Of a DNA stretch of 64,000 nt, positions 20,671-21,675 are shown piece after piece. A program made the translations under genes and the position numbers. Position 1 is the stretch's first letter. Each line of letters starts with the position of its first letter. Origin of the DNA: an uncultured Porphyromonadaceae bacterium (GTDB lineage: Bacteria > Bacteroidota > Bacteroidia > Bacteroidales > Muribaculaceae); contig CAMWID010000001.1 in the NCBI GenBank assembly GCA_947174235.1, positions 1 through 64,000 of the forward strand, written 5' to 3'. The notes beneath the pieces are model-generated. The model was not told where the DNA came from. It searched no databases and worked only from the letters and a program-made list of their open reading frames with translations.

Positions 20671-20726
20671 CCAAAATAAAGCGGATTGAGTAAGTATCGA
20701 TACTTACTCAATCCGCTTTATTTTGG
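20671..20726 (+). terminator. 56-bp perfect palindrome, probable bidirectional terminator
   Basis: The sequence from CCAAAATAAAGCGG to its complement is perfectly self-complementary over 28+28 bases, centred on TATCGATA. Read either way, a GC-rich stem is followed by TTTATTTTGG. It stands between the rightward exonuclease operon and the leftward small RNA/lpxH transcripts, where a bidirectional terminator would be expected. Confidence 0.75.
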
Positions 20727-20760: not shown

Positions 20761-20855
20761 AAAAAAAATAAAGGGTGATAACCTCCACGGTCGCACCCTT
20801 TGATAAGTTTCTACAGGTAAAAAATCTTAAGGTAAAAAAGATTGTTTTTAGGTTC
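20761..20855 (-). ncRNA. Candidate small RNA with its own promoter and terminator
   Basis: On the minus strand TTG (20890-20888) and TAACTTTG (20867-20860) are 20 bases apart. They point to a start near 20855. About 55 bases downstream, AAAGGGTG (20800-20793) pairs with CACCCTTT (20776-20769) around an inner ACC/GGT pair, and A then T7 follows, a canonical terminator. No ORF of useful length fits. The promoter box is also enclosed by a 13-bp perfect inverted repeat (20831-20843 and 20890-20902). The unit lies downstream of lpxH, which ends at 20932, and has no known Rfam name that I can assign. Confidence 0.6.
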
Positions 20856-20931
20856 GGTGCAAAGTTATCACTTTATTGCGGACTGACCAAATCTTTTTTA
20901 CCAAAATGTAAGAAACATGTTGTAGAACATA

Positions 20932-21675
20932 TTAACAGCCCCTCCATTTTAACAAATTTAAGCCGTTTTCATCCAAAACCGCATAACTAAATGTCCTGAT
21001 CCACTCACCGAGAACAATCATCTCACACCCGTCGGCTATCTCTTCACGACTCAATACGTGGACATGACCAAACATATAGAAATCCACTTCGCGGTGTGTC
21101 TTGTGATACTCTTCAACAAATGCGCGCAACCCTGCCACGACTCTCTCGTCGGGCACTCCCCTCTCCTCTCCGCTTTTGCGGCTGTGACGGCTCCATCCAT
21201 ATGCAAACGGAACCGTCCACCTCGGGTGTATCGCGCTGAACGCTTTCTGACATATCTTGTTTCTGAATATGCTCCTGATAAAACGAAATCCCGAAGGAAG
21301 GCTTCCGACTCCGTCGCCATGAGCCATGAATATACGCTTGTTGTGGACCACCTCTGTCAGCGAGCCGTCGACCACGCGTATTCCAAGCTCATTGGGAATA
21401 TAATCGAAAATCCAGATATCATGGTTCCCTATGAGCCATGTTATCTTTATTCCGGAGTCTGACAATTCGGCGAGCTTTCCGAAAAAACGTACGAACCCAC
21501 GAGGCACGACATAACGGTATTCATACCAGTAATCGAGCACATCCCCTAAAAGATAGATAGCTTCCGCATCCCCCTTTATGTGATCAAGGAATGCCACCAC
21601 CCTCTTCTCCGCTTCCCTGGAATCCGGGAAATAAGGGGCGCCAAGATGAAGATCGCTTAAAAAATATGTCCTCAT
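20932..21675 (-). CDS. lpxH: UDP-2,3-diacylglucosamine diphosphatase
   Basis: The product is 247 residues, a calcineurin-like phosphoesterase that cleaves UDP-2,3-diacylglucosamine to lipid X in lipid A synthesis at the inner membrane face. The metal ligands are visible: FLSDLHLGAP near residues 5-14, LGDVLDYW near 43-50, GNHD near 81-84, AHGDGVG near 118, and FGHVHVLS close to the C-terminus. It is 11 bases downstream of the DUF59 gene and probably shares its transcript. Confidence 0.92.
   Translation of the reverse strand: MRTYFLSDLHLGAPYFPDSREAEKRVVAFLDHIKGDAEAIYLLGDVLDYWYEYRYVVPRGFVRFFGKLAELSDSGIKITWLIGNHDIWIFDYIPNELGIRVVDGSLTEVVHNKRIFMAHGDGVGSLPSGFRFIRSIFRNKICQKAFSAIHPRWTVPFAYGWSRHSRKSGEERGVPDERVVAGLRAFVEEYHKTHREVDFYMFGHVHVLSREEIADGCEMIVLGEWIRTFSYAVLDENGLNLLKWRGC

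Follow-up and report, generated by a model that had tools for sequence, protein, structure and literature searches.

A conserved small RNA gene of Bacteroidales, related to BTnc060, is a candidate Cur-controlled sponge of FopS RNAs

The analysed window, 64,000 nucleotides from an uncultured Porphyromonadaceae bacterium of the Muribaculaceae, carries a small RNA (sRNA) gene on the minus strand at positions 20762–20857. Its promoter comprises a −33 box, TTTG (20891–20888), and a −7 box, TAACTTTG (20867–20860), separated by a spacer of 20 nt. Transcription is predicted to start near 20855 and to end in the T tract of a terminator, giving an RNA of ~92–95 nt. The terminator hairpin (20801–20770) has an 8-bp stem, AAAGGGTG/CACCCTTT, followed after one A by eight Ts (20768–20761). 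A conserved, largely unpaired region complementary to FopS sRNAs, here termed the anti-FopS region, spans 20803–20844 (sRNA positions ~16–57). The first-pass annotation had placed both promoter elements, the 8-bp stem and an RNA of about 95 nt as found here, and differs only in the T tract, where it counted seven residues. The neighbouring lpxH-like gene (20932–21675, minus strand) lies outside the sRNA unit; its product contains the Pfam Metallophos domain and scores below the cut-offs of the NCBIfam LpxH models. On the other side, a 28-bp perfect palindrome (20671–20726) lies between the sRNA and an exonuclease operon on the plus strand and is probably a bidirectional terminator; it has no loop, folds with z −15 as RNA and is unusually perfect for a terminator.

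A DNA search recovered clear homologs of the sRNA in most genomes of the same genus; secondary BLAST matches within the genus, to the promoter or the T-rich part, were short. The covariance model R1, which we built from 49 homologs, matched the window at 20762–20862 on the minus strand (63.4 bits, E 8.3e-8) and detected the sRNA in 21 of the 149 Bacteroidales genomes searched, always as a single copy. Outside the order, R1 gave only weak matches in 4 of 198 genomes (E 0.003–0.01), approximately the level expected by chance. A pattern scan of GTDB genomes placed the sRNA in Bacteroides, Phocaeicola, Prevotella, Segatella and Muribaculaceae. Typical Bacteroidales copies were also seen in two metagenome-assembled genomes of the NALB series labelled Roseburia and Clostridium (L047 and L050), which are probably mislabelled or mis-binned. 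The −33 box recurs in homologs, and the TTTG of the −7 box occupies the same position in those of all families examined; a generic sigma-70 scan missed the promoter, as expected for one of the Bacteroidota type. All 13 aligned pairs of the terminator stem show changes on both sides among the 49 homologs, with 90.1% of cells paired and a covariation score of 0.892, compared with 0.263 in shuffles. The locus is more than a chance arrangement, because conservation of the promoter, the RNA core and the terminator extends across the order. The proposal of the first-pass annotation, a short leftward transcript that has a promoter and a terminator of its own, is strongly supported. Judged by its computed anatomy and conservation, the locus is a real, stand-alone sRNA gene, presumably expressed in this organism. 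A coding peptide was considered and rejected: homologs share no conserved ATG, and the length of their T run varies by 1–3 nt.

The gene had been regarded as an orphan, but it has a described relative. Rfam model RF04184 (BTnc060, an sRNA of Bacteroides thetaiotaomicron) matches positions 20767–20977 on the minus strand with 28.0 bits, far below its gathering cut-off of 228.9 bits, a score reached by none of the 149 genomes of the order. The alignment nevertheless covers the same core, AACAAUCUUUUUUACCUUAA, and the homologous core, the −7 box and the terminator follow in the same order. When hits from an order-wide search with BTnc060 were read individually, the homologs formed one continuous set with −33 and −7 boxes, a AACCUAAAACAAUCUUUUUUACCUUAA..UACCU core and a terminator. 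BTnc060 thus resembles the sRNA in the CCUgAAAACAAUCUUUuUUACCUUAA core, the ACCU block, the aligned terminator, the overall architecture and the promoter type, and differs in that its model is 213 nt long and includes the conserved −7 box. Since the −7 box falls inside the model, the 5′ end of the latter probably lies upstream of the promoter. On these shared sequence features, the sRNA is a divergent homolog of BTnc060, for which the literature searched contained neither a function nor a link to FopS. The inclusion of the −7 box and a cut-off beyond the reach of all 149 genomes mean that RF04184 in its present form hides an order-wide family. Other weak Rfam matches in the region (rpsL_ricks, microRNAs and mmgR) were dismissed as due to chance or to the 28-bp palindrome.

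An unpaired 5′ seed enables FopS sRNAs (Rfam RF04319) to repress susC-type mRNAs (PMC11697453). The genome studied here contains ~6–8 FopS copies (about eight matches in a family search), and two of its SusC genes start within FopS-complementary sequence. The anti-FopS region and the FopS seed pair through collinear blocks, namely CAAUCUU/AAGAUUG, ACCUUAA/UUAAGGU, UACC/GGUA and the GAAACUU/GAGUUUUUC end, forming a predicted interrupted duplex of ~42 nt. Duplexes with the genome's own FopS copies reach −33.5 to −38 kcal/mol (−35.1 to −37.4 for genus-type copies), with z of −6.3 to −6.7 relative to dinucleotide shuffles of either RNA, and the sRNA is the best FopS partner among 10,658 segments from both strands of the 64-kb window. 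In 19 sRNA/FopS pairs from the order, each drawn from a single genome, z ranged from −3 to −6.8; 14 named Bacteroidaceae/Prevotella pairs were weaker but of the same sign (z −2.1 to −4.7). The sRNA of this genus pairs most strongly with FopS of its own genus (−33.5 vs −15.5 to −28.4). The complementarity to the seed is thus extended and beyond chance, as a sponge would require. Moreover, the UACC..GAAAAC block of the sRNA mimics UACCAUGAAAAAC, the target of FopS, with the AUG replaced. The FopS model itself does not match the sRNA on the same strand, its only match being one of 16 bits on the opposite strand, consistent with the sRNA being the complement of FopS.

The two RNAs also occur in the same genomes. 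FopS exceeds its cut-off in 27 of the 149 genomes of the order and the sRNA is found in 21, of which 20 carry FopS, including all 20 with a strong sRNA hit; the remaining one (G108) has a weak sRNA match in an incomplete genome. With G108 counted as unpaired, the hypergeometric probability of this overlap is 6e-18, a value that ignores phylogeny, for which the conservation counts are likewise uncorrected. Among named sRNA-bearing genomes, 15 of 16 possess FopS, with 3–10 copies each, and in Hallella the sRNA is present with FopS undetected. Presence of the partner in 20 of 20 strong cases and in 15 of 16 named genomes is what a sponge would call for. Seven FopS-positive genomes of the order lack the sRNA, and a repeated search of them yielded no convincing copy.

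Upstream of the promoter, a palindrome at 20917–20930, ATGTTCTACAACAT (ATGTTnTAnAACAT), is centred ~68 bp before the predicted start. It matches the published site of Cur (BT4338), wwwTATGTTnTAnAACATAwww (PMC6989115), at every specified core base. It is the only such match in the window, where 0.15 would be expected even with one mismatch allowed, and the whole genome (3.44 Mb) contains eight perfect Cur sites and none of a reversed control. The motif ATGTT-N4-AACAT, or a near match, precedes every homolog of the first set for which enough upstream sequence was available. With up to two mismatches, it accompanies 89 of 150 sRNA promoters, 87 of them at 48–49 or 64–65 bp from the end of the −7 box, from which all such distances are counted; only 2 of 682 random segments of the same loci reach the box score. 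The consensus therefore stands upstream of the promoter at a conserved position, as in a member of the Cur regulon. Cur control is not universal, many Prevotella-type homologs having kept the RNA without the box.

FopS promoters frequently carry a similar site: 23 of 42 distinct ones have a Cur-like box, against ~1 expected, and 20 of these 23 have it at 22–34 bp, overlapping the core promoter. Most of the Prevotella-type genomes inspected lack the box at sRNA and FopS promoters alike. A site over the FopS core promoter should block polymerase, while the upstream site of the sRNA could let an activator act; Cur is known both to activate and to repress (PMC6989115). Several Bacteroides-type FopS promoters have the box at ~56 bp, a position that need not repress, so that the opposite-sign model does not apply uniformly. 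The proposed circuit fits the published ~3-fold decrease of FopS on N-glycan relative to glucose (PMC11697453).

Several loci of this genome (G000) and its genus merit mention in their own right. FopS promoters at G000:C48:23777-24985, C8:11499 and C2:130565 (L199, L201 and L203), and those of L036 and L038, have Cur-type boxes at 33–34 bp, whereas the FopS study mentions just an unknown regulator. At position ~1500 of L192 (G000:C38:18896), a short terminated RNA, CACTGTTTTTAGGACATATAAGTTTAAG..., appears to be a FopS relative whose seed has changed; it is accompanied by a perfect Cur box, located 45 bp before the end of a −7 box. On the minus strand of C48 (L199), ~8 kb from a FopS cluster, an EF-G2-like gene with an open frame of 726 codons has a Cur-like box, GTGTTTTCTAACAT, upstream and recalls the Cur target fusA2.

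We consider the most probable interpretation, at roughly 0.72, to be that the sRNA is a Cur-controlled sponge, which would titrate the FopS RNAs that repress susC mRNAs for glycan uptake. In vivo, its unpaired 5′ half would form the ~42-nt interrupted duplex with the single-stranded 5′ seed of FopS, a seed that would otherwise pair around the start codon of susC-type mRNAs. Cur, a CRP-family regulator responding to carbon limitation, would act on transcription of the sRNA through the upstream palindrome, presumably as an activator. Once preferred sugars are gone, Cur would raise the sponge and lower FopS, and the mRNAs of polysaccharide utilization loci (PULs), such as susC, would be freed for translation. 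Given one sponge copy and ~6–8 FopS copies, titration would need either a strong promoter or catalytic turnover. We give about even odds to a broader picture, in which an antisense sponge, present once per genome and kept across the order, confronts an sRNA family of many copies, a box for one and the same carbon-starvation regulator occupies opposite-looking positions on the two sides, and both together constitute a feed-forward switch that would free susC mRNAs when preferred sugars run out.

A variant keeps the sponge and assigns the palindrome to another protein of the CRP/FNR family, or makes Cur a repressor of the sRNA. The genome yielded a single HTH_Crp_2 protein, at most a candidate ortholog of Cur, which is encoded outside the window (G000:C1:89052-89273), and the distance between box and promoter differs between genera (48 or 64 bp); both points leave room for such a variant. 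It nonetheless appears unlikely, considering the fit of the palindrome to the full Cur core and its location upstream of the −33 element.

Somewhat less probable still is that we are dealing with an ordinary trans-acting sRNA, the U-rich, ACCU-containing unpaired region of which binds mRNAs at their translation starts; a shared network would then account for the match to FopS, and it might even be FopS that sponges this RNA. Small RNAs built from an unpaired 5′ half and a terminator usually act on mRNAs, and pairing is symmetric, so that the sequence alone cannot tell which RNA controls which. However, collinear multi-block complementarity over ~42 nt is far above typical seed pairing, the conserved stretch resembles a FopS target in which the AUG has been replaced, and the demonstrated mRNA targets belong to FopS (PMC11697453).

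It is very improbable that the RNA is a product of the lpxH 3′ untranslated region, or that the locus is the lpxH terminator region with a weak internal promoter and no role of its own. In this genus the sRNA does follow lpxH closely and in the same orientation, and lpxH is its neighbour in the genus and the family. Elsewhere, however, the neighbours are glnS, cls, bioA, a glgB-like gene and others (names assigned by eye from translations, except for lpxH, the FeS-assembly protein and the exonuclease), and in two relatives (L017 and L018) the sRNA and lpxH are convergent. Conservation of the promoter, the Cur box and the RNA core does not depend on lpxH; the conservation of hairpin and promoter in relatives that the first-pass annotation named as a check holds, without the tie to lpxH that it assumed. 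The same annotation correctly described a 13-bp perfect inverted repeat (20831–20843/20890–20902) and read it as a regulatory element or an alternative structure with lpxH read-through RNA. In favour of that reading, the two arms match fully here, and the fold of the longer strand is better than that of its shuffles (z −2.8); it is nevertheless largely refuted by the promoter-side arm, which retains only 7–10 of 13 matches in 19 relatives. Of the two arms only the RNA-side one is conserved, since it falls within the FopS-complementary core. The repeat is therefore peculiar to this genome and its closest relatives, and the conserved control element appears to be the other palindrome further upstream, the Cur box.

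The proposed sponge can be set beside several known systems. FopS itself is likewise a short RNA with an unpaired 5′ half and a terminator, often has a Cur-type box and co-occurs with the sRNA; the sRNA, in contrast, is single-copy rather than multicopy, and its sequence is the complement of FopS, not a relative. SroC, RbsZ and PspH are sRNA sponges of Enterobacteriaceae, many of which derive from mRNA or tRNA precursors. As they do, the sRNA would sequester its partner by seed pairing; unlike them, it is encoded by a separate gene that an entire order has members retaining, faces a whole paralogous family and shares a transcription-factor box with it. MasB is a Cur-activated sRNA and is thus similar in belonging to the Cur regulon; it acts on the mRNA BT_1675 and is narrowly conserved (PMC10994844). 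The literature searched contained no sRNA sponge from Bacteroidota, and both the sRNA/FopS complementarity and the Cur box of the sRNA seem to be unreported.

FopS RNAs, described only recently, repress genes for glycan uptake (PUL genes) post-transcriptionally in gut Bacteroides, and a dedicated antagonist of FopS would explain how this repression is lifted. The sponge reading would also give the uncharacterised Rfam family BTnc060 a role and connect it with Cur, the master regulator of carbohydrate use.
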